This document shows, piece by piece, positions 1 to 16,732 of a DNA stretch of 39,761 nucleotides (positions within the stretch are counted from its first letter, which is position 1; the number at the start of each line of letters is the position of its first letter). The position numbers were made by a program, and so were the translations under genes. The stretch lies in NCBI GenBank assembly GCA_003154775.1, contig PMES01000076.1, forward strand, positions 1 to 39,761. The letters are read 5' to 3'. Source of the stretch: Acidobacteriota bacterium. GTDB lineage: Bacteria > Acidobacteriota > Terriglobia > Acidiferrales > UBA7541. The notes under the pieces are model-generated. The model ran no database searches and had not been told where the DNA came from. It was given only the letters and a program-made list of their open reading frames with translations.

Positions 1-106
1 CCTATAAAGACGGGGCATTGCTTAAGGGTGGGAATAAAGATACCTGTCTGCTTCCCGGGTATAGCTGCGCTGCCGAAGCGATATATCTGCTCAATACGGG
101 TAGTAC
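1..106 (+). repeat. Leader-like direct repeat, copy 1
   Basis: This stretch is nearly identical to 6675-6779, with a handful of substitutions and one indel near position 57. Copy 2 lies directly upstream of the TonB-receptor gene; this copy lies about 100 bases upstream of the dehydrogenase small subunit. Weak likeness continues past the repeat: both copies are followed some 30-50 bases later by 'atgcatgcg'. The indel and the lack of a shared frame argue against a coding repeat. The window starts exactly inside or at the edge of the repeat, so its left limit is unknown. It could be a shared regulatory leader or the footprint of a segmental duplication. Confidence 0.8.
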
Positions 107-204
107 CGGGGGAGCGCCCCTGCCCGGAAATTGCGCGATGCATGCGAAATGGTTCTAAGGGCAGTTTGCTGAAGCGGCGAAATCAGCGCTGAGGATGTTC
201 GCTC

Positions 205-771
205 ATGAAAGTGAAAAATAGACTCAAGCGACGGGAGTTCATGTGGTTGGCTGCGAGCGCCGTTGCAATTGGCTCGAGTATTTCCTGTGGAGAGGTCGTG
301 AGCCCCTGGCGTTCACTCACTACCGACGAAGCTGATAGCCTCGCAAGCCTCTGCAACCAGATCATCCCCGAGGATCAAGATCTCGGGGCGGCTTCAGCGG
401 ACGTCGTGAACTACATCGACGTGCAACTCTCGAGCCGCCTCAAGAGAATGAAGAAGGTTTATCGTTCGGGGATTGCTCAACTCAACGACCTCTCCTTCGA
501 AAGGTACGGGAAGAAATTCATCAGCTTATCGGATCAACAGCAGGTTGAGTTCCTGACCGCAATTGACCGCGACAAGGCGTGGAAGGAAACCACGTTGCAC
601 AAATTCTTCCGAATCGTTGTTGACCACACCATGCAGGGCTTCTACGGTGACCCCCGCCACGGCGGCAACCGGAACCGGGCGAGCTGGGCCATGCTGAACT
701 TACCGTATCCCCCGATTCGAGGAAGATTTCACGGGGACGCCAACGCAACCAACAATTCCAAGGTGAGCTGA
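205..771 (+). CDS. Gluconate 2-dehydrogenase subunit 3-like Tat protein (small subunit of GMC dehydrogenase)
   Basis: The 188-residue protein has the length and pattern of gluconate-2-dehydrogenase subunit 3 family members. It begins with a basic stretch, a twin-arginine-type motif (RREFMWLAAS, residues 10-19) and a hydrophobic segment ending at Cys28, so it may be a Tat substrate, perhaps lipid-anchored. The family hallmark GFYGDPRHGGN lies near residue 147, after an 'LCNQIIPEDQ' helix near residue 50. In known complexes this subunit carries the Tat signal and brings the signal-less flavoprotein across the membrane as a hitchhiker. The next gene starts 15 bases downstream and encodes just such a flavoprotein. 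The substrate cannot be read from this subunit. Confidence 0.88.
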   Translation: MKVKNRLKRREFMWLAASAVAIGSSISCGEVVSPWRSLTTDEADSLASLCNQIIPEDQDLGAASADVVNYIDVQLSSRLKRMKKVYRSGIAQLNDLSFERYGKKFISLSDQQQVEFLTAIDRDKAWKETTLHKFFRIVVDHTMQGFYGDPRHGGNRNRASWAMLNLPYPPIRGRFHGDANATNNSKVS

Positions 772-786
772 GGAGAAATTGGCTTT

Positions 787-2445
787 ATGGCGGCGAAAAA
801 TGTAAATGCCGTTGTGATCGGCGCCGGTGCAGGCGGCGGCATTGTTGCGAAAGAACTTGCCGAAGCCGGTCTGACAGTTCTGCTTCTGGAGCGCGGAAAG
901 TGGAACACACCGTTCGACGATCTGAAAGACGATCTGAGGAACCAGCGAGTTTCTGTATTGGGCGCCCCATTTGGCCCTGATGACGAACGAAATCCACGGG
1001 TCGTGGTTGATGCGCCGGGGCGGGAGCGCATTGTTCTTCCCAGCGACAGCGAAATGGAATACAACAATAATGCTGCTTGCGTTGGCGGAGGCACGGTTTC
1101 CTATGGCGCCATGGCCTGGCGTTACATGGAACAGGATTTTCGAATGCGTTCCACCTACGGGTCCGTCGAAGGCAGCACGCTCGACGATTGGCCTATCAGT
1201 TACCAGGATCTCGAGCCCTATTACGAGAAAGCAGAATGGGAAATCGGCGTTTCGGGAGACGATTCAAACAACATCTTTCGTGCGCCGCGAAAGCGCCCTC
1301 TTCCCATGCCTCCTCTTCCGCCTAATCGCGAATACACAATCCTAAAGCCCGCAGCCCAGCGCCTAGGTTTCCATCCGTTCGACATTCCAATGCTGCGAAA
1401 TTCAGTCCCGTACGGGGGCAGAGTGCCTTGCATGCGCTGTCGTTGGTGCGTAGGGTTCGCCTGCGAAGTGAATGCCAAGAACGGAACGCAAAATACGGTC
1501 ATTCCAAAGGCGCTAGTTACGGGCAACTGCGAACTCAAGACGGACTGCATGACGAAAGAGATTTTGACCGACGCCAGGGGCCGCGCAACAGGAGTCGCCT
1601 ACTACGACGAAAACGATCATCTCCAGGAGCAAACCGTGGACATCGTCGTGGTATCGTGCGGAGCTAATGAGTCCGCACGTCTCCTGCTGAATTCAAAAAG
1701 CTCGCTGTTTCCTAACGGTTTGGGGAACCGCTACGATTGGGTTGGGAGGAACTTGCAAGGCCACGCGTACACGGGCGCTTGTGGGTTGTTCGATTTCGAG
1801 GTCTACGACGACATCGGACCAGGAGCTTCCATCGCGATTTGTGATTTCAACCATGGCAACCCAGGCCTGGTCAGCGGCGGGATGCTCGCGAATGAATTCA
1901 TAAGGCTCCCGATCGAATTCGTCGGTCAAGACCAGCCGGTTGTGAAAGATTGGGGACGTGAGCACAAGGATTTCATGCGCCAATGGTTCAAGCGGAGCAT
2001 CGTCGTCTACGGGCCCGTGCAGGAGATGCCTGTTTTTGACGCGCGGGTACAAGTGGACCCTGTCGTAAAGGACCACTGGGGTATTCCTGTTTGTCGACTT
2101 TCAGGGAGGAGGCACACCAACGATATTCACGTAGCTGAATTCCTATCCACCAAAGCGGAGGAATGGCTCAAGGAAGCGGGAGCGATCAAGACTTGGCCTC
2201 AGTTGCCTGACTCGCGTTTGAGCGGTGGGCAACACCAAGCCGGCACTTGCCGCATGGGGAATGATCCAAAGACTTCTGTAGTGAACAAAGATTGCCAGGT
2301 CCATGATGTGGACAACCTGTTCGTGATTGACGCCAGTGTGCATGTCACCAACGGCGGATTCAATCCTGTACTGACTATCATGGCGAACGCATACCGCGCC
2401 TCCGACATTCTGGTCAGGAACTGGAAAGGAACGAAGTTCCGATAG
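787..2445 (+). CDS. GMC-family FAD-dependent sugar/polyol dehydrogenase (gluconate dehydrogenase large-subunit type)
   Basis: This 552-residue flavoprotein opens with an FAD-binding Rossmann motif (VIGAGAGGG, residues 10-18) and the E-R-G strand end near residue 37. The GMC C-terminal domain carries the likely catalytic pair His483 (in QHQAGTCRMG) and Asn526 (in GGFNPVLT). A Cys-rich segment near residues 217-228 (CMRCRWCVGFAC) is typical of the branch related to gluconate, fructose and glucoside-3-dehydrogenases. In the iron-sulfur members of that branch such cysteines hold a cluster; here this is only suggested. There is no signal peptide, so export would depend on the Tat-signal subunit encoded just upstream. 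Electrons would go to the cytochrome encoded next. Substrate is unknown: gluconate, glucose or a glucoside (C3 oxidation) are possible. Confidence 0.9.
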   Translation: MAAKNVNAVVIGAGAGGGIVAKELAEAGLTVLLLERGKWNTPFDDLKDDLRNQRVSVLGAPFGPDDERNPRVVVDAPGRERIVLPSDSEMEYNNNAACVGGGTVSYGAMAWRYMEQDFRMRSTYGSVEGSTLDDWPISYQDLEPYYEKAEWEIGVSGDDSNNIFRAPRKRPLPMPPLPPNREYTILKPAAQRLGFHPFDIPMLRNSVPYGGRVPCMRCRWCVGFACEVNAKNGTQNTVIPKALVTGNCELKTDCMTKEILTDARGRATGVAYYDENDHLQEQTVDIVVVSCGANESARLLLNSKSSLFPNGLGNRYDWVGRNLQGHAYTGACGLFDFEVYDDIGPGASIAICDFNHGNPGLVSGGMLANEFIRLPIEFVGQDQPVVKDWGREHKDFMRQWFKRSIVVYGPVQEMPVFDARVQVDPVVKDHWGIPVCRLSGRRHTNDIHVAEFLSTKAEEWLKEAGAIKTWPQLPDSRLSGGQHQAGTCRMGNDPKTSVVNKDCQVHDVDNLFVIDASVHVTNGGFNPVLTIMANAYRASDILVRNWKGTKFR

Positions 2446-2487
2446 AGACACTGCTGTGCAAGGTTTTCAGGCCACAGCGGAGTAAAC

Positions 2488-3903
2488 ATGAGAATTGCGT
2501 GCTCACGTTCGGGTCGTGTGTACTTGGCGCTTGGTATCGGGGTGCTTGTCATTCTTTGTATACCCGGAGCGAGCCTATACTACGAAGCTTCCGGTGGCAG
2601 GGCGTGCGCGCGGTGCCACGAAATCTGGCAGCTTTACGCTGATTGGCATACATCCGCACACCGCAATATCAAATGTACGGAATGCCACGGACACGTCTTT
2701 ACCCTTGATGCCGGATTTCACCTGAACAACATGCGACGCGTTTTCACACACCTGCAAGGTGATGCCCGGGAACGGGTTCGCATCAGGGAGCGGGACATTC
2801 CCAAGATCATGGCCAATTGCCAGAGATGCCACCAGCAGGAATACGCCGATTGGCAGGCCGGACCGCACGGCGTTTCGTATCGGGACATCTTTCTTGACAA
2901 GACATTCAACCAGAAAAACATCTTGATGGACGACTGCTTGCGATGCCACGGAATGCATTTTGAAGGATCTATTCGCGAACTCGTGCAACCCATTACCACC
3001 ACGGGCCCATGGTCGTTAAGAGATCGCTCGCTCGCCGATCACCCCGTGATTCCGTGCCTCACATGCCATCAAATTCACAAGGAAGGAGTGCCGCTTCAAA
3101 GGTCGAGGCTTGGCGTGCGGGCGTCCGGGCCGGAGCAGGAGATCATGCTCCCCTCCCTGGCTCTATTCGATCGCCGGGAAATGGAATCGGTTGCTGTCAG
3201 CCGCTTAAGCCTGCTCGAAATGAAAGACGGCAATCGCTTGGTTAAGACCAGTTCTGATCCGCGGCAGGCGCTTTGCTACCAGTGCCACGCGCCTCGCGCA
3301 ACCCAGCAAGTTGGATCAGGTGACGACCGCACTCCAACCGGAGTGCACGAAGGCCTGAGCTGCCTTGCATGCCACCTTAAACACGGCCAGTTGACACGCG
3401 CTTCCTGTGCGACGTGTCATCCTCGTCTCTCCAATTGCGGACTGGACGTTGAAAAAATGGATACAACCTTCAGATCGCCCAAGAGTCCGCACGACATTCA
3501 CTTTGTGAAGTGTGAAGACTGCCACGCCAAGGGGGTGCCGAAGAAGGCCCACCGCGAAGTTCACTTCCCAACCTCAGCAAACGCTCCAGTTAAGCCGTTG
3601 CATAGCGACCGACTTCGATCCTCCGAAGAGTTGTCCCGGGCCAAAATGTTATCCGGGGTGAATGCAGCTAGCGTCACCAACATTCAAGAAGAGGAAACTG
3701 AAGTCACGATACTGAGGCGACCAGAATGTTACAATCTTACATTGCGTGGTAAACGGCCAAATGGAGTTTCTACTGACCACATGCCTCGCCCGCTGGCACA
3801 CGTGCAAAATAAATCCACAATCGATGTTTTTGTTGACAAGAAAACGGCGGATGGAAATACCGCGCGTTCTTCAGCATTGGCGCAGATACGTAGCGCCAGG
3901 TAA
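2488..3903 (+). CDS. Nine-haem membrane-anchored cytochrome c
   Basis: The protein (471 residues) has one N-terminal membrane segment (about residues 11-31) followed by nine CXXCH haem c sites. The first three are at residues 40-44, 63-67 and 111-115 and the last at 342-346. Spacing of the first sites and the single anchor recall NapC/NirT-type quinol-cytochrome proteins, but the haem number is larger. GGAG about ten bases before the ATG supports the start. Its place 42 bases after the GMC dehydrogenase suggests it is the electron acceptor, replacing the triheme cytochrome of classical gluconate dehydrogenase. The last ~125 residues hold no haem site and look compositionally different; they could be a lineage-specific tail or out-of-frame sequence after a mutation. 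Confidence 0.85.
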   Translation: MRIACSRSGRVYLALGIGVLVILCIPGASLYYEASGGRACARCHEIWQLYADWHTSAHRNIKCTECHGHVFTLDAGFHLNNMRRVFTHLQGDARERVRIRERDIPKIMANCQRCHQQEYADWQAGPHGVSYRDIFLDKTFNQKNILMDDCLRCHGMHFEGSIRELVQPITTTGPWSLRDRSLADHPVIPCLTCHQIHKEGVPLQRSRLGVRASGPEQEIMLPSLALFDRREMESVAVSRLSLLEMKDGNRLVKTSSDPRQALCYQCHAPRATQQVGSGDDRTPTGVHEGLSCLACHLKHGQLTRASCATCHPRLSNCGLDVEKMDTTFRSPKSPHDIHFVKCEDCHAKGVPKKAHREVHFPTSANAPVKPLHSDRLRSSEELSRAKMLSGVNAASVTNIQEEETEVTILRRPECYNLTLRGKRPNGVSTDHMPRPLAHVQNKSTIDVFVDKKTADGNTARSSALAQIRSAR

Positions 3904-3958
3904 CCTGGTTCCATTGATGTAAGACAGCCCCGGCAAAGTCTTTTGCCATAGGAAGATT

Positions 3959-4111
3959 ATGACGATCCCCAATAGCGTGAGGGTTGAGCGGGCGTGTTGC
4001 GGTGGTTTCCGGGGAGACCCAAAGTGGTTCAACAGCGAGATGGACGGGGCGAGTAAAGTACTGGATTTTCTGAGTGTCTTGATAGTGACGAAAAGAGGAT
4101 TAATGAAATGA
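3959..4111 (+). CDS. Possible 50-residue ORF overlapping the next start
   Basis: An ATG at 3959 is preceded by AGGA at 5-base spacing and opens 50 codons ending in TGA at 4109-4111. The stop overlaps the ATG of the isomerase gene at 4108 in an ATGA arrangement typical of translational coupling. The predicted peptide has no signal peptide or family I recognise, and includes an adjacent Cys-Cys pair. It may equally be chance reading of a leader region. Evidence is limited to the ribosome site and the overlap. Confidence 0.25.
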   Translation: MTIPNSVRVERACCGGFRGDPKWFNSEMDGASKVLDFLSVLIVTKRGLMK

Positions 4112-5034
4112 CGAAATCAAGAAGAGAGTTTGTCCAATGGATGACCACTGCAGCTATCGGCACTGCTTTCTTTTCAAAAAGTGCGGGGCTCTTGCATGCT
4201 TATCCCCTTGAACTCCCACCGGGTCTGCAACTTTGGAGCGTTAGGGATGAGTTGGCGAAGAATCGTGATGCGACCTTACGTATGATTGCACAAATCGGGT
4301 ATCGAGAAGTGGAGCTTTTCGAGTTGCCTAAATCTCCCTCTGAGTTCCGGAGAAAGTGTGCCGACGTGGGATTGAACTGCGTGAGCGGTCACTTCTATCT
4401 CGATTCCTTGAAGAGCCAGAAGACGATCGATGCTGCGAAGGAGTTGGGACTGCAGTACATGATCGTTGTTTTCCCGACACTCCGGTCCTTGAGTGGCCAA
4501 GATATTTCGAATATGAGTGTTGACGCTCTCACCCCGCTGTATGAAAAGATCTCACTAGACGACTACAAATGGAATGCCGAGCAGTTTAATAAGTATGGTG
4601 ACATTCTGAAACGCAATGGGCTGCAACTTGGATATCACAACCATGCTGTCGATTTGAAAAAGTTCGGAAATGCGGTCGCGCTTGATTCGCTCATCGAGTC
4701 GACGGATCCGAACTTAGTCGTGTTTGAGATGGACTGTGGGCACATGATCCATGCTGGATCCGATCCGATCGCTTACCTGAAAAAATATCCTAGCAGGATC
4801 GGCTTGCTTCATCTGAAGGATCTCAAACTCGGCTTCACGGTCGCCACGTCGCTTGATACAGAGGAAAAAGATACTGACGCAGAGATCGGGTCAGGAGTCA
4901 TTGATTGGAAGCGCCTATTCGAAGTGGCGAAGCAGGGAAGGGTGAAGCATTGCTTTGTTGAGCATGAAGGGAAAATGGACCATCCTCCGCTTGAAGCCAT
5001 TGCGATCTCATACAAGTATCTCCAGCAGTTTTGA
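4108..5034 (+). CDS. Tat-exported sugar phosphate isomerase/epimerase-like TIM-barrel protein
   Basis: This 308-residue protein starts with a Tat signal (SRREFVQW, residues 4-11, then a hydrophobic stretch to about residue 32) and continues as an AP-endonuclease-2/xylose-isomerase-like TIM barrel. Family motifs are visible: YHNHAVD near residue 178, EMDCGH near 208, LLHLKD near 234 and FVEHEG near 288. These hold the probable metal ligands Asp, His and Glu. AGAGGA upstream fixes the start. Its closest relative in the window is the gene at 15821. Members of this fold isomerise or epimerise sugars, and some cleave 3-keto-glycosides by beta-elimination. The nearby dehydrogenase makes the second role worth testing. 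The substrate is unknown and the periplasmic location is inferred from the signal. Confidence 0.85.
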   Translation: MTKSRREFVQWMTTAAIGTAFFSKSAGLLHAYPLELPPGLQLWSVRDELAKNRDATLRMIAQIGYREVELFELPKSPSEFRRKCADVGLNCVSGHFYLDSLKSQKTIDAAKELGLQYMIVVFPTLRSLSGQDISNMSVDALTPLYEKISLDDYKWNAEQFNKYGDILKRNGLQLGYHNHAVDLKKFGNAVALDSLIESTDPNLVVFEMDCGHMIHAGSDPIAYLKKYPSRIGLLHLKDLKLGFTVATSLDTEEKDTDAEIGSGVIDWKRLFEVAKQGRVKHCFVEHEGKMDHPPLEAIAISYKYLQQF

Positions 5035-5226
5035 GGCTGAAATACAACATTTGCATGGCAGAGCGGCCGACGCTTTTCCTCGCCAAAATCTCATTCGCGT
5101 CGAAAATGGTGCTACTCCCTGCCGGGAACATTTGAATCCGAACTGCGAATTGAACCAGGCATGCTCTGCCGATTGCAAGTTTCTGCATAGCAATCCGTCA
5201 GCAGGCCCGGCAATTCACAAGGATGG

Positions 5227-6326
5227 AGTTCGGAGGTGCGGTTTCAGAACCACACGCCTGGGGTGAGGTAGCCCGATCGTGACGATCATGGCGCCCGCCG
5301 AGTCGCGCGTGAGAAAGAATACGATCCGAGGCGATGGAACGCGGTCGCTTGTTCGGCGTTCTCTTCCCGAGTCCAAGATGCGTGCGGTCTTTCAGGCAGC
5401 AGCGGACGCATTCAGGGAGCAATCGCTTCAGATAACGTTCGTCGAATGAGATGAGGTGATCCAACAGGTCACGACGGCAATTGCCTACCTTACGCTCCAC
5501 AACTCCGTTCTGCCAAGGACTGCGCAGTGAAGTGCGGGCACATTTGATTTTCATCGATCGCATGGCGGCGGGGAGCTCTGCCCCATGCCTGGCATCCCGA
5601 TCGAAGATGAGAAACCTGGGTGCCGACCCACATGGAAATGCCTCCCGTAGCTGTCGAACGATCCGACTGCTCCTCGGGTGCCTCGTGAGGTTGGAGTGCA
5701 GGGTGCGCCGGCGGTCGTGACCGATGACGAAGAAACAATAGAGCGCGCTGAAGGGGATCGTTGGAACCGCAAAGAAACCCATCGCCCCAATGGTTTCTCG
5801 GTTGTTGCACGAAACGCAAGCCAGCGCTTGGCTGGGGTCAGGATCCCTCGGCGCTCGTTTCATGTAGCGGAGGATCGTTCGCTCCGAGACATCAAAACCA
5901 AGCATGAGGAGCTCGTCATGTGTCCCGGGCGCGCCCCAGGTTGGATTCTCAACAACCACCAGGAAGATCAACTCCCGAACCTCGTTTGAAACTCGTCTCC
6001 TCGCTACCGGCTTATGGGCTCCCGAGATCAAGCGCCAATAGAAGGGGAAGCGTGTTCGATGCCAGCGAACCATCGTCCCCGGTGTGACGATGATCAAAGC
6101 TTCTTTCCAGGTGGACCAGAACTGATAGGCAATGACCCGGAACAGAGTGTCGAACAAATCGAGCGGTGGCCGCGGCTGTCGACATTCCAGAACAGCAAAC
6201 TGTTGCCGAAGCCCGAGAATCTCCGACACAAGCTTCCCGCAGTTACGAAAAAGGCGAATGAGGACCCCGAACCAAAGCAAAAAAAGTGCACATGGGCCGG
6301 GGTTATGGCAGGCACACCTCGGAACT
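5227..6326 (-). mobile_element. Insertion sequence, ~1.1 kb, with imperfect terminal inverted repeats
   Basis: The ends carry matching 14-base inverted repeats: AGTTCGGAGGTGCG at 5227-5240, and CACACCTCGGAACT at 6313-6326, which reads AGTTCCGAGGTGTG inward. Between them one integrase-type transposase reading frame fills the minus strand. I see no convincing target duplication in the flanks. The right end directly abuts the surviving 3' piece of a TonB-receptor gene, while the left flank shows no receptor sequence. A simple insertion would leave receptor sequence on both sides, so deletion must have accompanied or followed it. The boundaries rest on the repeat match alone. Confidence 0.7.
5265..6300 (-). 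pseudogene. DDE/integrase-core transposase, probably inactive
   Basis: The minus-strand product shows, in order, a leucine-rich N-terminal 'LRQQFAVL' segment, a helix-turn-helix part ending in NPTWGAPGTHDELLMLGFDVSER, and an integrase core with FLIFDRDARHG and SPWQNGVVER. These match a transposase family common in Acidobacteriota and Verrucomicrobiota genomes as I remember them. In that family the first catalytic Asp sits in an 'AMDFF' context. Here it reads AMGFF, with the Gly codon at 5777-5779, a single base from Asp. Several other usually conserved residues are also changed (YVRYYHED appears as CVRCCLKD). The frame is free of stops and stays open to 5198-6403, but loss of an acidic catalytic residue should abolish transposition. 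Confidence 0.65.
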
Positions 6327-6337
6327 AGGGCCGTAAG

Positions 6338-6604
6338 TTGCTGATTCTTCCGCCTGGGAACATTTTGGCGACTACAGCCCTCTATGGGCCTCCGCAGAGA
6401 CACCTAGATCTTTCGCTTTTCCGCCAGATCCCGCTGAACGAGCGGGTCCAGCTGCAATTCCGCGCCGAGTCGTTCAATCTCACCAATACGCCGAGTTTCG
6501 CCGCGCCTGATTCCGGCTTAGGGGACCCTGGCTTCGGTGCCATTTCTTCGACCGGCAACGCTAACTCCCGCCAGCTCCAGTTCGCCCTCAGACTGTTGTT
6601 CTGA
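6338..6604 (+). pseudogene. C-terminal remnant of a second TonB-dependent receptor
   Basis: The last ~80 codons match the end of the intact receptor downstream almost residue for residue: LYGPPQRHLDLSLFRQIPLNE here against LYGPHQRHFDLSLFRDIPLNE there. A shared 'NTPSFAAPDSGLGDPGF' block and a terminal aromatic Phe typical of outer-membrane barrels follow. No signal peptide, plug or most of the barrel remains. The IS right end lies just upstream at 6326, so the rest was lost by an IS-associated deletion. DNA of the two tails differs at many third positions, so this was an older paralogue, not a recent copy. The open frame could still give a short peptide but not a receptor. Confidence 0.85.
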
Positions 6605-6674
6605 TTCGAAGATCCTGACCTGCACGTCTCAAGAAATTCTTCTACTCTGTCATTAAAACTCAATCTCAATCGCT

Positions 6675-6779
6675 CCTATAAAGACGGGGCATTGCTCAAG
6701 GGTGGGAATAAAGATGCCTGCCTGCTTCCCGGCATAGCTGCGCTGCCGGAGCGATATGTCTGCTCAACACGGGTAGTAC
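6675..6779 (+). repeat. Leader-like direct repeat, copy 2
   Basis: Near-identical partner of 1-106. It lies 71 bases after the receptor remnant and ends about 60 bases before the start codon of the intact receptor gene. A short inverted repeat CCGGCA...TGCCGG (6729-6734 and 6744-6749) is present here, but the equivalent bases in copy 1 do not pair, which speaks against a conserved RNA hairpin at that point. It may contain a shared promoter or leader. Confidence 0.8.
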
Positions 6780-6841
6780 TGCGGTGGCTCCGTCTCGAAA
6801 GGCAGAGTTTTGTCAGCAATTTATGCATGCGGAGATACTCT

Positions 6842-9800
6842 ATGAAAATAACCAGGGGCGTTCTTTCTGTTGTTCCAGTTTCGAGGCCGGTGCGAGTTCT
6901 AGTCAGAATTATGCTTCCTGTCCTGTGGGCATCTCTCCTTCTTACCCTCGGCTCGAGGGCCCAAGTGACCACGGCGGACGTCGTGGGGACCGTAACCGAC
7001 AGCAGCGGAGGGGTAATTGTAGGCGCTCGGGTCGTGCTAGAGAATCTGAGGACGGGTTCAACGCAAACCGCCATGACGGGCCAGGCGGGAGAGTATGTCT
7101 TCACATTGCTGCCTGCTGGACATTACAAGCTCAACGTTGCTGCTAGCGGCTTCAAAGGATTTATTGTGTCTGATTTTGCCCTTGCGGCTGGTGATCGAGC
7201 GCGTGTAGATGCGCGCATGGACATCGGCCAATCTTCCCAGTCGGTTGAAGTAACGGCAACACCGCCCGCGCTACAAGCCGAAAGTTCTACGATCAGCTCG
7301 ACTGTCACGGAGATGTCTGTCCAAGATTTACCTCTGAACGGTCGAAACTTCATCAGTTTAGTGCAGCTCACACCTGGGGCAAACGAAGGCCTGCCGCAAG
7401 GGCTTACGAGTGGTAACCGCCCTGATGATCGACGTCAGTCCTCTGCTGTAACCGCGAACGGTCAGGGCGACGTTTTTAACAATCACATTATCGATGGAAT
7501 GGATAACAATGAGCGGGCTATCGGTACCATCGGTGTACGTCCTTCGATTGATGCTATTTCCGAAGTCCACGTGCAAACCAATGAGTACACGGCCGATGTT
7601 GGCCGTACAGCCGGCGCTGTGATCAATATCATCACAAAGTCAGGGACGAACGATTTTCACGGTTCACTATACGAGTTCCTGCGCAATGACAAACTGGACG
7701 CGAGGAATTTCTTCGCAAATGCCGGGTTGAAGCCTGAGTACCGCCAGAATCAGTTCGGTGGCAGTTTGGGGGGGCCGATCAGAAAAGACAAGGCTTTCTT
7801 TTTCGCCGATTATGAAGGGCTGCGCGTGGTTCAAGGAGTTACTTCACTGACGACGGTGCCGACTGCACTAGAGCGCACTGGAGATTTCTCAGAACTGCTG
7901 CCGAGCACTTTGATCTACGATCCGACAACCGGGCTCCCTTTTCCGGGCAACAAGATTACGAATGTTAGCCCGATCGCCGCAAACTACATGACGCTGTATC
8001 CTCTACCGAACCTGCCTGGACTGTCTAACAACTACTCCAGCACGCAAAACAGAACGCAGTTCAGCCACACCGGCGATGTCCGGTTCGACGAGCATTTCAA
8101 CGACAATAATCTGTTCTTTGCGCGGTACACGATCAACGACGTTGCGACATTCACTCCCGGACTCTTTCCAGCGGTGGATGGAATTCAGGGTGGAGGAAAT
8201 CCCAGCAGTTATCCGGGTCCCGCGCAGGAGCGCGCTCAAAACATCCAACTAAACTATGTACACGTCTTTACTCAACATCTGCTTCTGGAATTGAAGGCGG
8301 GTTACACCAGGGTCAATATCGCCTCAAATCCCTTAGCTGATGGACTGAACCTTAGCGAAAAGTTCGGATTGACTGGAGTTAACGTTAGCGGGGTTTCGGA
8401 GTTGTCTTTGATGGGGCCGGTCGGCTATGCAGCCCTTGGTGATGCTTATTACCTGCCGATCAATTACATCGACAATACCTTCCAGTTGGACGGGGCCGTC
8501 ACCTACGTAGTGGGAAGACACACGCTGAAGGCTGGAGCCGCATTAATTCAGCGTCAGGTGACTGATTTTCAATCCGACTTTGCCGCGGGCTATTTCACCT
8601 TCGCGGCTGCGCAAACTGCGAACCCGACCACTCAGACAGGGGGGGACGCAATGGCATCGTTCCTGGTAGGAATTCCCCAAGAGACACAGCGCATGAACGA
8701 ACTAGTCAGGCCGACTTTCCTGATGTGGGAGCCGAGCGTTTACTTACAGGATAACTGGAGAGTGAAGCCCTGGCTAACGTTAAACCTCGGCGCGAGGTAT
8801 GACGTCTACACTCCCTACACTGAGAAGCACAACTACCTGTCTAACTTCGATACGAGTACTGGGAAGGTTATCGTGGCAGGCCAAAATGGGGTGTCCGATA
8901 CGGCCGGTGTTGCGACGGATTACCGCAACTTCGCGCCGCGCGTCGGTTTTGCCGCGACGTTGAGGGGCGGTGTCGTGCTTCGTGGTGGTTATGGGCTAAC
9001 TTTTTTTCCGGGGAATCTCACTTCGGCAGCTGCTTTGATCAATGCCCCATTTGGTTTCTCGTATGGTCCCGTTTCAAACGTGCCGCTATCGGCGGGACTG
9101 CCGGTGCCGATGCCGGGCGATCCCAACAATCCGAGCGGTTTTTTGACTGCGGAGGCGAAAGATTTCCGGTCAGGCTATCTGCAACAATTCAATCTGAACC
9201 TACAGAAGGCGATCGGCGCGAACGTGTTCAGCGTCGCCTATGTTGGGGAACTTGGGCGCCATCTGCCACAGGAACTCCCAAACTTGGCTCTGCCATTGCC
9301 CTGTCCCGACCCCTACCCTTGCACACCGATACCGTATTCATCAACGGTTCCAAACGTGTCTGCCATTGGATGGACACAAACTGAAGGTGCATCCAGTTAC
9401 AGTGCGATGCAGATTTCATTCGTGCGCCGCTATTCCAATGGTCTAGATGTAAGTTCGAACTACACATGGGCACATGGAATCGACGATACCTCAACTATCA
9501 GCAACAATTTTGCGTCAGGAATCTATCTGGTTCCTTCCAAAATAGCGACTTACGATCGGGGTAACAGCGATCTGGACATGCGTCAACGTTTTACCGTGGC
9601 GGTAAACTACCAATTGCCCTTCGGCAAGGGACTTGAGGGGGTTGCAAAGAAGGTTTTATACGGGTGGCAGGTTAATGGAATTTTAGTTTGGGAAACCGGG
9701 CAGCCTTTCACAATAGTAAACCCGAACAACCCGCAGATTAACCTTGGCCCCTCTATCTATGCAGACCGGCCGAACCAGACAGAGAGCGCAAGCCTGTCAA

Positions 9801-10108
9801 ACCCAACGATTCAGGAGTGGTTCAACACATCGGCATTTTCAGTGCAACCTTTTGGCACTCTGGGTGACGTGGGACGCAACACGCTCTACGGCCCTCACCA
9901 GAGACACTTCGATTTGTCGCTGTTTCGTGACATTCCTCTTAACGAGAAAGTTAAACTTCAGTTCCGCGTTGAGTCTTATAACCTGACCAATACACCGAGT
10001 TTCGCGGCACCTGATTCCGGATTGGGTGACCCCGGATTTGGTGCGATCTCCTCAACGGGAAATGCTAACCCACGCCAACTGCAATTTGCTCTCAAGTTCC
10101 TGTTCTGA
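6842..10108 (+). CDS. TonB-dependent outer-membrane receptor with carboxypeptidase-regulatory N-domain (Oar-like)
   Basis: The protein is 1088 residues from ATG 6842, chosen over more upstream in-frame starts because GGAG (6831-6834) precedes it and a signal peptide follows (hydrophobic stretch about residues 22-38). Next comes a carboxypeptidase-regulatory-like domain (about 40-120, with VVGTVTDSSGG), a plug with PLNGRNF near residue 164 and INIITKSGTNDFHG near 262, then a long beta-barrel ending in Phe. This architecture is abundant in Acidobacteriota and usually serves uptake of large or complex carbohydrates or peptides powered by TonB. The GH3 gene follows after a terminator. The ligand is not predictable, though the context suggests glucosides. 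A truncated paralogue sits immediately upstream. Confidence 0.93.
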   Translation: MKITRGVLSVVPVSRPVRVLVRIMLPVLWASLLLTLGSRAQVTTADVVGTVTDSSGGVIVGARVVLENLRTGSTQTAMTGQAGEYVFTLLPAGHYKLNVAASGFKGFIVSDFALAAGDRARVDARMDIGQSSQSVEVTATPPALQAESSTISSTVTEMSVQDLPLNGRNFISLVQLTPGANEGLPQGLTSGNRPDDRRQSSAVTANGQGDVFNNHIIDGMDNNERAIGTIGVRPSIDAISEVHVQTNEYTADVGRTAGAVINIITKSGTNDFHGSLYEFLRNDKLDARNFFANAGLKPEYRQNQFGGSLGGPIRKDKAFFFADYEGLRVVQGVTSLTTVPTALERTGDFSELLPSTLIYDPTTGLPFPGNKITNVSPIAANYMTLYPLPNLPGLSNNYSSTQNRTQFSHTGDVRFDEHFNDNNLFFARYTINDVATFTPGLFPAVDGIQGGGNPSSYPGPAQERAQNIQLNYVHVFTQHLLLELKAGYTRVNIASNPLADGLNLSEKFGLTGVNVSGVSELSLMGPVGYAALGDAYYLPINYIDNTFQLDGAVTYVVGRHTLKAGAALIQRQVTDFQSDFAAGYFTFAAAQTANPTTQTGGDAMASFLVGIPQETQRMNELVRPTFLMWEPSVYLQDNWRVKPWLTLNLGARYDVYTPYTEKHNYLSNFDTSTGKVIVAGQNGVSDTAGVATDYRNFAPRVGFAATLRGGVVLRGGYGLTFFPGNLTSAAALINAPFGFSYGPVSNVPLSAGLPVPMPGDPNNPSGFLTAEAKDFRSGYLQQFNLNLQKAIGANVFSVAYVGELGRHLPQELPNLALPLPCPDPYPCTPIPYSSTVPNVSAIGWTQTEGASSYSAMQISFVRRYSNGLDVSSNYTWAHGIDDTSTISNNFASGIYLVPSKIATYDRGNSDLDMRQRFTVAVNYQLPFGKGLEGVAKKVLYGWQVNGILVWETGQPFTIVNPNNPQINLGPSIYADRPNQTESASLSNPTIQEWFNTSAFSVQPFGTLGDVGRNTLYGPHQRHFDLSLFRDIPLNEKVKLQFRVESYNLTNTPSFAAPDSGLGDPGFGAISSTGNANPRQLQFALKFLF

Positions 10109-10112
10109 GAGA

Positions 10113-10152
10113 CAACGACCGCCGACGGTACTTGAGCCTTCGGTGGTCGTTG
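10113..10152 (+). terminator. Terminator-like hairpin after the receptor gene
   Basis: CAACGACCGCCGA (10113-10125) can pair with TCGGTGGTCGTTGG ending at 10152 (one G-U pair), forming a stem of about 13 pairs around a loop of roughly 14 bases. It starts five bases after the receptor stop. The following TTATTAG is only weakly T-rich, so termination may be partial, letting some transcripts reach the GH3 gene. Confidence 0.6.
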
Positions 10153-10186
10153 GTTATTAGGGTAAGGATGGCGAGAGGAGAGAATT

Positions 10187-12946
10187 GTGAGCTGCTTGTA
10201 TCACAGTATGGGACGTGGAATCACCGCTAGCAAGTACATGTCCCTCGGGCTCATGGCCTTGTTCTTCGTTGCCAGCGTTGCGTTGGCGCAGACGGCCGCC
10301 CCGACACCGGTCGTGACGGGAAATGCCAGAGTCGATAAACTTCTCAGCCAAATGACTCTGGCGGAGAAGATCTCCATGATTCACGGCGCACCGGAAGATC
10401 CGTCCACAGACCAGGGACAGGCTGGCTACCTGCCGGGCTTACGACGGTTGGGGATTCCGTCTTTGCGACTCGCCGACGGACCGCCAGGGGTGTTAACGAT
10501 GCACCCGTCAACGGCAATGACGGCAACCATGGGACTGGCTGCCACGTTCAGCCGCGAGGACGCCCGCCAGAACGGGGTGGTGATCGGTCGCGACGCTCGC
10601 GCCCTGGGCCAGGACGTGGCTCTTCAACCGTACATCAACGTGTTCCGGGACATGACCTGGGAGCGGTCCTACAACATGTACGGTGAGGATCCGCTTTTAA
10701 TCGGGCAGGTCGGAGCCGGAGTTATCACCGGAATTCAGAGCCAGGGCGTAATGGCTCAGGCCAAGCACTACATCGCTTATGACAGCGGGCACGGAGAAGA
10801 TGCGCCTGACGTCTTTGTCGATCCGCAGCCTCTGCACGAGATCTACGTCGCGCCGTTTGCGGACGCAGTCGATGCGGGGGTTTCCTCGATCATGTGTTCC
10901 TACAACAAAGTAAACGGCCCGTATGCATGCGGAAACTCCGATACGCAGAATACGATCCTCAGAGGCGAACTGGGGTTCAAGGGATTTATAACCTCCGATT
11001 GGGGCGGCAATCACGCCAGTGACTTCATAAACGCTGGGCTCGACCTGGAGATGCCCGGGATTGTTCTTGATGACGCGGAAGCCTCCTTAATGCCATCCTA
11101 TTTCAGGCCAGATCCGCCGCCGCACTCTAAGCCTTGGGCGGCAGACGTTTCCCCAGATGTCTTTATCGGCGGAATCCCGGAAGAGCCCCGCCAAAGATTC
11201 TCTTTTTCTAGTCCCGACGGCACGTTGACGAACGGAATGCTGGCGGCAGTCCAGGCGGGCACGGTGAATGAACTGACGATCACCCAAGCCGTGGCGCGGA
11301 TCTTGCTTCAGATGGATCTCTTTGGGCTGCTGGACGACAAGTCGAACCATGGCGTGACAACTGTGCCGGTCGACGAAGATGCCAGGGTCGTCCAGAAGAC
11401 GTCCGAGGATGCGGCGGTGCTGCTGAAGAACGAGGGTGGCGCGTTACCCCTTAGGCAAAGTGATCTCAAGCTGTTGGCAGTAATTGGACCGGGCGCAGGG
11501 CAGACGATTGCCATCGGTGAATCCCGTGAAAAAGGTCTCGGCTTCCCGTCGAGGCAGGTCTCACCGTTGCAGGCGCTGGAAGAATACACGGCTGATGTCC
11601 CGAACAAAAACATCACGTACGCGGTTGCGAATGATATGACTGGGACGCCGGTTCCCGCGACTGCGCTCTCGCACCAGGGAGCTCCGGGGCTGCTACGCAC
11701 GGACATGAAGACTAAGCAGATGCGAGTGGACGCACAACTCGACTTCACGAAGTCGAACGGGCAATATCTGCTCGCCAGCACTTCCTACACCTGGACCGGG
11801 ACCCTCACCGTGCCGAGTGAGGGATCCTACTTGATTTACCTGCAAGTTCTTGGCGCGTCGGGAGACCTGGTTTTAGATGGCAAACAAGTCGGCCAGACTG
11901 CCGACCTGTTTGAGCACGGGAACGTCCTCCATCCCTCGCAGGATAACGTACTGCCTACCACCGACAACCTCGACAATGTTCGTGCGCGGATCCAACTGGC
12001 AGCCGGGGAGCACACTCTGGCAGTGTCAGTGAAAGGCGAAACAGATGGAAACCCCGTCCAGGTTCGGCTGAACTGGGTAACTCCTGAACAGCAGAATGCC
12101 AATTTCGAGGCCGCCATCACTGCCGCCAAGAAAACCAGGACCGCAGTGGTCTTCGCCTGGGGCAGGGGCCGTCCTGCCTTCGCGCTTCCCGGAGACCAGG
12201 ACAAATTGATCGCGGCGGTCGCGGCGGCAAATCCCAACACGATTGTGGTGCTGAACACAAGTCAGCCCGTAGCGATGCCCTGGCTCGCCAAGGTGAAAGC
12301 CGTGCTGGAGATGTGGTATCCGGGAGACTCGGGCGGACCAGCTACAGCCGCTATCTTACTGGGCCGTCGGAACCCCGCCGGCCGACTGCCCTTCACCTGG
12401 CCACAGCGCCTTGATCAGTGCGTAGCCAATGATCCGGCGCACCCCGAACGTTCTTCCAGCGGGGCCAATCACAAAACGTACTACTCTGAGGGTATTTACA
12501 TAGGATACCGGTGGTTTGACAAGCAGAATCTCGAACCCCTCTATCCCTTTGGCCACGGCCTGTCATACACGAGCTTTCAATACTCGGCGCTGAAGGTTGC
12601 ACACGCCCGCGACGGCGGACTTGACGTCAGCTTCCGCCTCCACAACGTAGGCAAGAGAGACGGTGACGAGGTTCCTCAGGTGTACCTGGGAGCGCCAAGC
12701 GAAGGGCCGAGCGGTGTGCAGTTTGCGGTTAAGGCGCTCGCGGCTTTCGATCGAATCAACTTGACTCCGGGCCAGTGGAGGGATGTCACGCTGCACGTAC
12801 CACTGCGTCGACTGCAATACTGGTCCAAGACGGCCAACAATTGGGCAATGGCCACGGGCGCTCGCAAAGTTTACGTGGCCGCCTCCTCGCGTGACATACG
12901 CTTGCAGGAAGATATCAGCATGGCCGTTGCTCCCGCCGCGCAATAA
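10187..12946 (+). CDS. Exported GH3 beta-glucosidase with PA14 insert
   Basis: The protein has 919 residues from a GTG start preceded by GAGGAG at 6-base spacing; an ATG at 10208 is an alternative. A signal peptide ends near ALAQT (about residue 35). The GH3 N-terminal barrel carries the nucleophile region GFITSDWGG (Asp271) and the KHYIAYDSG substrate-side motif. The second GH3 domain is split by a PA14-like module (about residues 500-635), as in Kluyveromyces BglI-type enzymes, where it restricts the active site to short glucosides. A fibronectin-III-like domain closes the protein (about 820-905). It probably removes terminal beta-glucosyl, or possibly xylosyl, residues in the periplasm from substrate admitted by the receptor encoded upstream. 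Confidence 0.92.
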   Translation: MSCLYHSMGRGITASKYMSLGLMALFFVASVALAQTAAPTPVVTGNARVDKLLSQMTLAEKISMIHGAPEDPSTDQGQAGYLPGLRRLGIPSLRLADGPPGVLTMHPSTAMTATMGLAATFSREDARQNGVVIGRDARALGQDVALQPYINVFRDMTWERSYNMYGEDPLLIGQVGAGVITGIQSQGVMAQAKHYIAYDSGHGEDAPDVFVDPQPLHEIYVAPFADAVDAGVSSIMCSYNKVNGPYACGNSDTQNTILRGELGFKGFITSDWGGNHASDFINAGLDLEMPGIVLDDAEASLMPSYFRPDPPPHSKPWAADVSPDVFIGGIPEEPRQRFSFSSPDGTLTNGMLAAVQAGTVNELTITQAVARILLQMDLFGLLDDKSNHGVTTVPVDEDARVVQKTSEDAAVLLKNEGGALPLRQSDLKLLAVIGPGAGQTIAIGESREKGLGFPSRQVSPLQALEEYTADVPNKNITYAVANDMTGTPVPATALSHQGAPGLLRTDMKTKQMRVDAQLDFTKSNGQYLLASTSYTWTGTLTVPSEGSYLIYLQVLGASGDLVLDGKQVGQTADLFEHGNVLHPSQDNVLPTTDNLDNVRARIQLAAGEHTLAVSVKGETDGNPVQVRLNWVTPEQQNANFEAAITAAKKTRTAVVFAWGRGRPAFALPGDQDKLIAAVAAANPNTIVVLNTSQPVAMPWLAKVKAVLEMWYPGDSGGPATAAILLGRRNPAGRLPFTWPQRLDQCVANDPAHPERSSSGANHKTYYSEGIYIGYRWFDKQNLEPLYPFGHGLSYTSFQYSALKVAHARDGGLDVSFRLHNVGKRDGDEVPQVYLGAPSEGPSGVQFAVKALAAFDRINLTPGQWRDVTLHVPLRRLQYWSKTANNWAMATGARKVYVAASSRDIRLQEDISMAVAPAAQ

Positions 12947-13019: not shown

Positions 13020-13354
13020 ATGGCATGGTCAAGAAGAGAATTGCTGTGGCGGAGCGGTACCGCTTTAGCCGCAACTGCGCTTTCGTTCGACAAACATTTC
13101 GCTCTGCTCGGCGAACCGTTGGAGCGGCCGGCACGAAACGGGCCGCATTCATCCGGTCGCATGCGTATGCTGTTTCACGGGCGATTGCGGAAGGCGTGCC
13201 GGTCAGGGGTTATTTCTTTTGGTCGTTCGTCGACAATTTCGAATGGACGGACGGCTTCGCTCCGCGGTTTGGTCTCTACCACGTGGATTACACAACGCTC
13301 GATCGCCACCTTGCCGCCGGTGCTGAGGAATTCATCGAGTTGGCACCCCAATAA
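13020..13354 (+). pseudogene. Chimeric remnant: Tat-isomerase start joined to a GH1 beta-glucosidase tail
   Basis: The first ~37 codons from ATG 13020 (AAGGAGG just upstream) read MAWSRRELLWRSGTALAATA and closely match the Tat signal of the gene at 15821, through 'GEPLERPA'. From about 13128 the recognisable sequence is in a different frame: TKRAAFIRSHAYAVSRAIAE, then the GH1 signature FFWSFVDNFEWTDGF and RFGLYHVDY up to TAA 13352-13354. These are the last ~75 residues of a family 1 beta-glucosidase; the acid/base and nucleophile motifs are missing. A deletion has apparently fused two neighbours out of frame. Translation from 13020 would give a 115-residue exported nonsense tail. The strong ribosome site survives. 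Confidence 0.8.
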
Positions 13355-15820: not shown

Positions 15821-16732
15821 ATGGCATGGTCACGACGAGGGTTTTTACGGCAGAGCGGTATAACACTGGCAGCGACCGCGCTTGCGATCGACAAACATTT
15901 GGTTTTGCATGGCGAGCCATTGCAGCGGTCGGCGGGATTGCAGCTTTTCGCAGTAGCGGATGAACTTCAGAAGGACTTTGACGGTACTCTCCAACGGGTT
16001 CACGCGATCGGATATAAGGAAGTTGAGATGGCAGGCTTTTTCGGTAAGAAGCCCACTGAAATAAAGACGTCTCTCGACAACGCAGGTCTGCATTGCGCCA
16101 GCGTTCATATCTTCGATCCGGGCCCGGCTACCGACACCATGGATTATGCGGTGGCAATCGGCGCGAAATATGTCATAACTGCGCTCTATCTATTGAAACG
16201 CGAGCCCGATGACAATGCCTATATAACTATGGTGAAACGCCTCACCCTTGACGACTACAAAGCCATGGCGGAGCAGTGTAACCGCCTGGGGGAACAAGCA
16301 AAAAGTCGCGGGCTGCAATTTGGTTATCACAACGAAAATGTAGAGTTTAGGCCTTTACGAGGAGGCACTGGATATGACGAGTTGCTACTATCCACGGACC
16401 CCGAGCTTGTCAAATTGGAACTTGACTGCGGATGGATGGCAGCGGCGGGTCAAAACCCAGCAGCCTATATCACCAAATATCCGGACCGATACCGACTTCT
16501 GCACATAAAAGACTTTAAGTACAGGGCTAAGCCATCTTACGGCGGTTGGCCTGGTGAGAGTCCGGAACCAACTGAATTGGGCCGAGGACATATCGATTAC
16601 AAGCCAATTTTTGATGCTGCGAAAAAGAGTGGCGTCGAATGGTACTACGTCGAGCAGGAAGCGCCATTCACGGATATGCCGGTAATGGAGGCACTCAAAG
16701 TCGATTACGAATATGTGCACAAGCTACTCTAA
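15821..16732 (+). CDS. Tat-exported sugar phosphate isomerase/epimerase-like TIM-barrel protein
   Basis: The 303-residue protein begins with a Tat signal (SRRGFLRQSG, residues 4-13, then a hydrophobic stretch); TAAGGAGAG six bases upstream fixes the start. The barrel motifs YHNENVEF, KLELDCGWM, LLHIKDFK and YVEQEA correspond to those of the paralogue at 4108. One clear change is YHNE in place of the YHNH seen there, which may alter metal or substrate contacts. The start of a third paralogue survives at 13020. Being exported, it would act in the periplasm, where it could process oxidised sugars from the GMC dehydrogenase or from the exported oxidoreductase encoded next. Function beyond fold is inferred. 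Confidence 0.87.
   Translation: MAWSRRGFLRQSGITLAATALAIDKHLVLHGEPLQRSAGLQLFAVADELQKDFDGTLQRVHAIGYKEVEMAGFFGKKPTEIKTSLDNAGLHCASVHIFDPGPATDTMDYAVAIGAKYVITALYLLKREPDDNAYITMVKRLTLDDYKAMAEQCNRLGEQAKSRGLQFGYHNENVEFRPLRGGTGYDELLLSTDPELVKLELDCGWMAAAGQNPAAYITKYPDRYRLLHIKDFKYRAKPSYGGWPGESPEPTELGRGHIDYKPIFDAAKKSGVEWYYVEQEAPFTDMPVMEALKVDYEYVHKLL

Follow-up and report, generated by a model that had tools for sequence, protein, structure and literature searches.

Introduction

Can a sugar dehydrogenase built on a flavoprotein of the GMC family take an unrelated nine-haem cytochrome as its partner in place of the usual three-haem subunit? The question is raised by the first genes of a 39,761-nucleotide stretch of DNA (contig PMES01000076.1 of assembly GCA_003154775.1; hereafter the window) from a member of the Acidobacteriota, a phylum that is common in soil and mostly uncultured. 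The open reading frames (ORFs) of the window encode there a small subunit, a GMC flavoprotein and a c-type cytochrome with nine CXXCH sites, in that order and all in one direction. We report that these three genes are a conserved cassette with joint inheritance. With moderate confidence, we favor the reading that the trio is a periplasmic flavocytochrome dehydrogenase on the plan of the flavin adenine dinucleotide (FAD)-dependent glucose, gluconate and fructose dehydrogenases, equipped with a different electron-transfer subunit.

The Gluconobacter fructose dehydrogenase, gluconate dehydrogenase and 2-ketogluconate dehydrogenase follow the same three-part plan as the trio, and the cytochrome of gluconate dehydrogenase carries three haems. 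Three is also the number given for the fructose and 2-ketogluconate dehydrogenases, versus nine here, in the available text of PMC9727119, where three-part flavocytochrome dehydrogenases are treated as enzymes for glucose sensors, with direct electron transfer to an electrode. A natural nine-for-three-haem version would be a new electron-transfer subunit, would show the enzyme plan adopting an unrelated cytochrome as partner and suggests that Acidobacteriota have a respiratory oxidation not yet described. Among the open-licence PubMed Central papers listed, judged by title and beginning of abstract, none described a GMC enzyme whose partner is a nine-haem cytochrome or another multihaem protein; the trio looks real and, within that literature, undescribed.

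Gene organization of the trio

An earlier note on this DNA had pointed to a GMC dehydrogenase paired with a nine-haem cytochrome within 787-3903. The two genes, at 787-2445 and 2488-3903, were confirmed by the ORFs, Pfam matches and the count of sites. The full cytochrome frame encodes 471 amino acids in the ORF list and is divided below into a conserved part and an extension.

1..106, + strand: upstream element, with a second copy at 6675-6779 (92% identical)
205..771, + strand: small subunit, Gluconate_2-dh3 family, 188 amino acids (PF13618, 95.2 bits), with a twin-arginine signal and a lipobox-like Cys28
787..2445, + strand: GMC flavoprotein, catalytic subunit, 552 amino acids (PF00732, GMC_oxred_N, and PF05199, GMC_oxred_C, both over cut-off)
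2488..3567, + strand: conserved part of the nine-haem c-type cytochrome (residues 1-360), containing all nine CXXCH sites and NrfH-like over its first ~100 residues
3568..3903, + strand: 3' extension of the same frame (residues 361-471), absent in relatives and of lower GC content at third codon positions (GC3)

The window begins at base 1 of the contig, and the sequence before the small subunit is therefore unreadable. The genome carries one more trio on a different contig (locus L034), with identities of 44% for the small subunit, 70% for the GMC protein and 59% for the cytochrome, the last having 364 amino acids and nine sites.

Conservation and linkage

A profile scan of 84,980 species genomes with the cytochrome alignment retrieved 140 relatives, the best 80 of which make up the loci counted hereafter; these belong to the Acidobacteriota, apart from three Opitutia/Opitutae records. 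The GMC gene stands directly upstream of the cytochrome gene in 77 of the 80 loci, the remaining three being cut by the start of their contig. GMC stop and cytochrome start overlap by 4 bases in 36 of these 77 loci, and by any length in 54. The small subunit is present at 72 loci, and the other eight are too short, with less than 1.3 kb upstream. Nine CXXCH sites are found at 76 loci; three of the rest are cut, and the frame of L090, 482 amino acids long, is two sites short. Both the adjacent GMC gene and the nine sites recur more often than chance would allow. The earlier note had advised looking for the same trio in other genomes; there it is, with the cytochrome linked to the dehydrogenase.

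A class-wide search covered 299 genomes. Among the matches listed, with up to five cytochrome and four GMC candidates scored per genome, a strong cytochrome match (> 280 bits) occurs in 26 genomes and a close GMC match (> 800 bits) in 28, which include all 26. Two genomes thus have a close GMC match and no cytochrome match: in G152 the contig ends within the gene, and G010, described below, is a genuine exception. Nine sites at matching places were found in 25 of 27 class copies, the window genome's two included, the other two being the broken frames L028 and L029; in all 27 the GMC gene immediately precedes the cytochrome gene. Of the further loci, L002-L004 are redundant, L030 is a fragment and L031-L033 are short NrfH-like matches to other proteins. 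A search at phylum level matched 4 of 297 genomes, including that of the window and G520, described below.

The two proteins also share their history. In trees of the 70 of 82 loci at which both are long enough, 24 of 67 splits are held in common, versus at most three in 200 label shuffles. At the three Opitutia/Opitutae loci (L096, L097, L105), the trio is present as far as the contigs reach, and the GMC protein and cytochrome of L096 have the same close acidobacterial relatives (L070, L084, L095), as if transferred jointly.

We also surveyed up to 8 kb around the 80 loci (frames of at least 100 amino acids; 68 loci with at least 2.6 kb upstream). The earlier note had allowed that a separate three-haem cytochrome just upstream might serve the dehydrogenase. 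No frame of that size with three CXXCH sites was found in these flanks, which speaks against that candidate there, the window's own upstream region lying beyond the contig start. Besides the nine-haem genes, the flanks hold 31 frames with CXXCH sites, of which 29 have no more than two and the others, at L057 and L095, have six each; none is conserved, and the L057 frame matches cytochrome c and FixO models. No partner gene other than the trio is conserved near more than 15 of the 82 loci (groups in at least six loci, antisense frames left out). In the 15-locus group, at about -3.2 kb, the single member scanned (L046) lacks a Pfam match.

The catalytic and small subunits

The closest solved chains to the GMC protein are those of glucose dehydrogenase (6a2u, 8hdd), followed by fructose dehydrogenase (7w2j, 8xcm); the 6a2u match spans residues 6-544 (E 5.9e-54). 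The His of QHQAGT and the Asn of GGFNP fall at positions that we take to be those of the GMC catalytic pair. A motif CX2CX2CX4C (C215, C218, C221, C226) is kept in 70 of the 72 loci whose match covers the region. The Cys-rich region of the FAD-dependent glucose dehydrogenase (FAD-GDH) of Burkholderia cepacia aligns with C215, C221 and C226, and the cluster ligands of that enzyme are presumably Cys212, 218 and 222. Like the trio, it combines a Cys-rich iron-sulfur (Fe-S) GMC protein, a small subunit exported by the twin-arginine translocation (Tat) route and a c-type cytochrome (6a2u, 8grj, 8hdd), this last with three haems versus nine here. The available text of PMC9727119 describes its Fe-S cluster and a disulfide bond between Cys213 and Cys152 of the small subunit. 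Cys213 is replaced by Met216 in the window protein, in whose motif C218 is extra.

Among 23 aligned small-subunit homologues, R9 and R10 are invariant and Cys28 is kept in 22, the exception being Opitutia locus L096. A twin-arginine pair is present in 70 of 72 small-subunit frames (70 loci, L034 and the window), and a lipobox-like Cys, sought with a loose pattern, in 67. These sequences suggest a lipoprotein, and the lipobox-like Cys is a difference from B. cepacia FAD-GDH. By sequence, the small subunit matched zero chains of the PDB up to E 0.1. Its predicted model, with a predicted local distance difference test score (pLDDT) of 82.1, gave nothing meaningful in the PDB (best E 1.9) among the best 50 matches, a list from which the absence of the B. 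cepacia small subunit excludes nothing.

Judged from the predicted proteins, the catalytic and small subunits fit the plan of the FAD-GDH, gluconate dehydrogenase and fructose dehydrogenase type, and the three-haem subunit that defines this plan is lacking. As the earlier note had it, the nine-haem cytochrome occupies the place expected for that subunit, and this arrangement is conserved.

The nine-haem cytochrome

The CXXCH sites start at residues 40, 63, 111, 150, 190, 263, 292, 307 and 342, and all nine are invariant in 36 aligned homologues. Further histidines, including H58, H88, H127, H197, H287, H299 and H338, are invariant in the same alignment and could be distal haem ligands. Pfam models matched over cut-off are Cytochrome_C7, Cytochrom_c3_2, Mtrc-MtrF_II-IV and Cytochrome_C554; past its NrfH-like part, the protein resembles the short cytochrome c7/c3 and c554 models. 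With the nine-haem profile, no match up to E 0.1 was obtained to any PDB chain of the B. cepacia FAD-GDH cytochrome subunit.

The N-terminal part had been described in the earlier note as a NapC/NirT-like anchor. The description is partly borne out: profile positions 14-114 match NrfH (2j7a, E 4.4e-6), and the single hydrophobic stretch (residues 11-29) and the first haem sites align with NrfH/NapC structures (2j7a, 2vr0). The stretch may be an uncleaved anchor or may be cleaved as a signal peptide, and the cytochrome differs from NrfH/NapC in its nine haem sites and in a TIGR03153 (NrfH) score below the family threshold (48.1 bits vs a cut-off of 134.2). Foldseek with the predicted model, which is weak, returned NrfH at E 0.16 plus one chance row; in a structural comparison of this weak model with six chains, NrfH reached Z 6.1-6.2, where Z 6.2 corresponds to a root-mean-square deviation of 6.3 over 133 aligned positions.

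The last ~110 residues of the window cytochrome probably lie outside the ancestral protein, as judged from its relatives: those with nine sites (n = 76) have 329-401 amino acids and end 12-51 residues past the start of the last site, versus 129 in the window. GC3 is 0.63 in the core of the gene vs 0.48 in the 3' extension (3568-3903), which is single copy in the genome and is perhaps an old mobile or repeat sequence. Residues ~375-440 of the extension have weak matches, interrupted by stops, in three genomes of the genus (G142, G150, G174).

Proposed mechanism and electron outlet

In the favored reading of the trio as a periplasmic flavocytochrome dehydrogenase, the genes, their motifs, the cassette and its joint inheritance are observed, and we infer complex formation, the direction of the electrons, the cluster type, lipidation, the substrate and the acceptor. 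The small subunit would export the GMC subunit through the Tat pathway and tether it to a membrane through its lipidated Cys. The GMC subunit would oxidize a sugar, glycoside or polyol at its FAD, and electrons would pass to an Fe-S cluster, with the cysteines of the CX2CX2CX4C motif as its ligands, and on to the cytochrome. They would then travel along the haem chain to the NrfH-like, membrane-facing N-terminal part and enter the respiratory chain, either at menaquinone or by way of a soluble cytochrome c with an oxidase. The route is proposed by analogy with the three-haem enzymes. As a candidate reaction, sugar oxidation, also put forward in the earlier note, fits the nearest solved relatives, FAD-dependent glucose and fructose dehydrogenases.

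A different cytochrome partner has a precedent, because the glucoside 3-dehydrogenase of Rhizobium radiobacter uses a c-type acceptor, CYTc, with one haem (available text of PMC9915066). This enzyme and the LacABC lactose 3-dehydrogenase of Caulobacter, compared here by description only, are FAD-dependent or membrane-bound sugar dehydrogenases (available texts of PMC9915066 and PMC9007349).

As for the outlet, three proteins of the genome match the COX1 family over cut-off, a family that also includes nitric oxide reductases, and no MtrB/PioB protein (PF11854) was found in the genome, a search without a positive control, since 14 control genomes also remained below cut-off. On these two grounds, electrons are more likely to enter the respiratory chain than to reach an extracellular acceptor. 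In an improbable variant of the scheme, the lipid would fix the dehydrogenase to the outer membrane, and the nine-haem protein, with its anchor in the inner membrane, would span the periplasm as a wire leading electrons inward; sugars would then be oxidized at the cell's periphery and their electrons brought in to the respiratory chain.

Evidence against the proposed dehydrogenase and alternative explanations

Several observations weigh against a flavocytochrome complex of the kind proposed. Genome G010 encodes a 74%-identical GMC protein and a small subunit, and neither a cytochrome match nor any frame with two CXXCH sites was found in the 1.6 kb downstream of this GMC gene. G185 holds a cytochrome fragment (L030) without an adjoining GMC gene, its only GMC protein being a distant one (44%). 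G520 carries a divergent nine-haem gene (39%; L178, 3254-4306) on a 4.7 kb contig that lacks any GMC gene, and also has a linked copy elsewhere. The seven nearest sister GMC loci (57-62%) share the cysteine motif without an adjoining multihaem frame, so the motif is a trait of a wider GMC group and is not tied to the nine-haem partner. The predicted cytochrome model is too weak (pLDDT 65.8; predicted template modelling score 0.52) for a haem path to be drawn. Finally, Lys82 and Asp89 of NrfH, which we take to be quinol-site residues, are not kept in the alignment of the cytochrome with 2j7a, so a quinone site is at most putative.

At L178, a side observation concerns the gene order: labelled by eye, a REP-type-transposase-like frame and a glycoside-hydrolase-like gene precede the nine-haem gene.

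The best-surviving alternative, which we regard as possible and still rather unlikely, is a glycoside 3-dehydrogenase that produces 3-keto-sugars in the periplasm, to be taken up by an MFS permease and processed by the neighboring Gfo/Idh and xylose-isomerase-like proteins. Dehydrogenases of the LacABC type are indeed known in the use of 3-keto-lactose (available text of PMC9007349). Downstream of the window trio lie three AP_endonuc_2 TIM-barrel genes, two Gfo/Idh genes (one product with a Tat signal match), a GH3 gene and an MFS permease gene of the Nuc_H_symport family, and the same 106-base element precedes both the trio and the gene at 6692 for a TonB-type outer-membrane protein, surroundings that would suit the use of glycosides. 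Such sugar-gene neighbors are rare at other loci, however: matches similar to the window's Gfo or TIM proteins occur near only 5 of the 80, to which a Pfam scan adds L096, and the genome's other trio (L034) lacks a TIM match and has neighbors that are unrelated by eye. Deducing the substrate from neighboring genes as a general rule was dropped, keto-sugar genes being found at few loci.

We consider it improbable that the three proteins form no physical complex and are merely kept together as an operon, the GMC protein using another acceptor and the cytochrome another donor. The pair in G010, the sister GMC proteins and the one orphan cytochrome (L178) speak for this reading; against it stand the linkage at 77 of 80 loci, where the genes often overlap, in both Acidobacteriota and the Opitutia/Opitutae records, and the joint inheritance of GMC protein and cytochrome. 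A multihaem network in the periplasm may still take part. Least probable is delivery of electrons by the nine-haem protein through such a network to an acceptor outside the cell in place of the aerobic respiratory chain, in line with the idea of the earlier note: the Mtrc-MtrF_II-IV match (40.9 bits vs a cut-off of 30) and a haem number that would suit long-range transfer speak for it, and the proposal is left unsupported by the COX1-family proteins, by the lack of a conserved multihaem partner beside the trio and by the failure to find MtrB/PioB, a search that did not extend to other kinds of outer-membrane conduit.

Genomic neighborhood

Other groups recur near the trio at a minority of the 80 loci. 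A GH3 group is found near six (Pfam run on L048), and a pyrroloquinoline quinone (PQQ)-dehydrogenase group lies within 8 kb of the trio at 12, confirmed by Pfam at L036, L058 and L106.

The 106-base element, with which the contig also begins, has only two copies in the genome and gave no match in the 30 further genomes searched from the genus; it may act as a control region common to both genes. Rfam gave zero matches at the gathering threshold over positions 1-12000 of the window, and no similar DNA was found in the plasmid collection. The trio region is separated from the sugar cluster by a frame at 5198-6403 on the - strand that is likely a transposase remnant, with a weak match to an integrase core (rve_3, 23.7 bits, below the cut-off of 26.5). 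Further downstream, a 113-base direct repeat (74% identity) occupies 13020-13132 and 15821-15933; its first copy lies between scanned genes and its second forms the start of a TIM-barrel gene.

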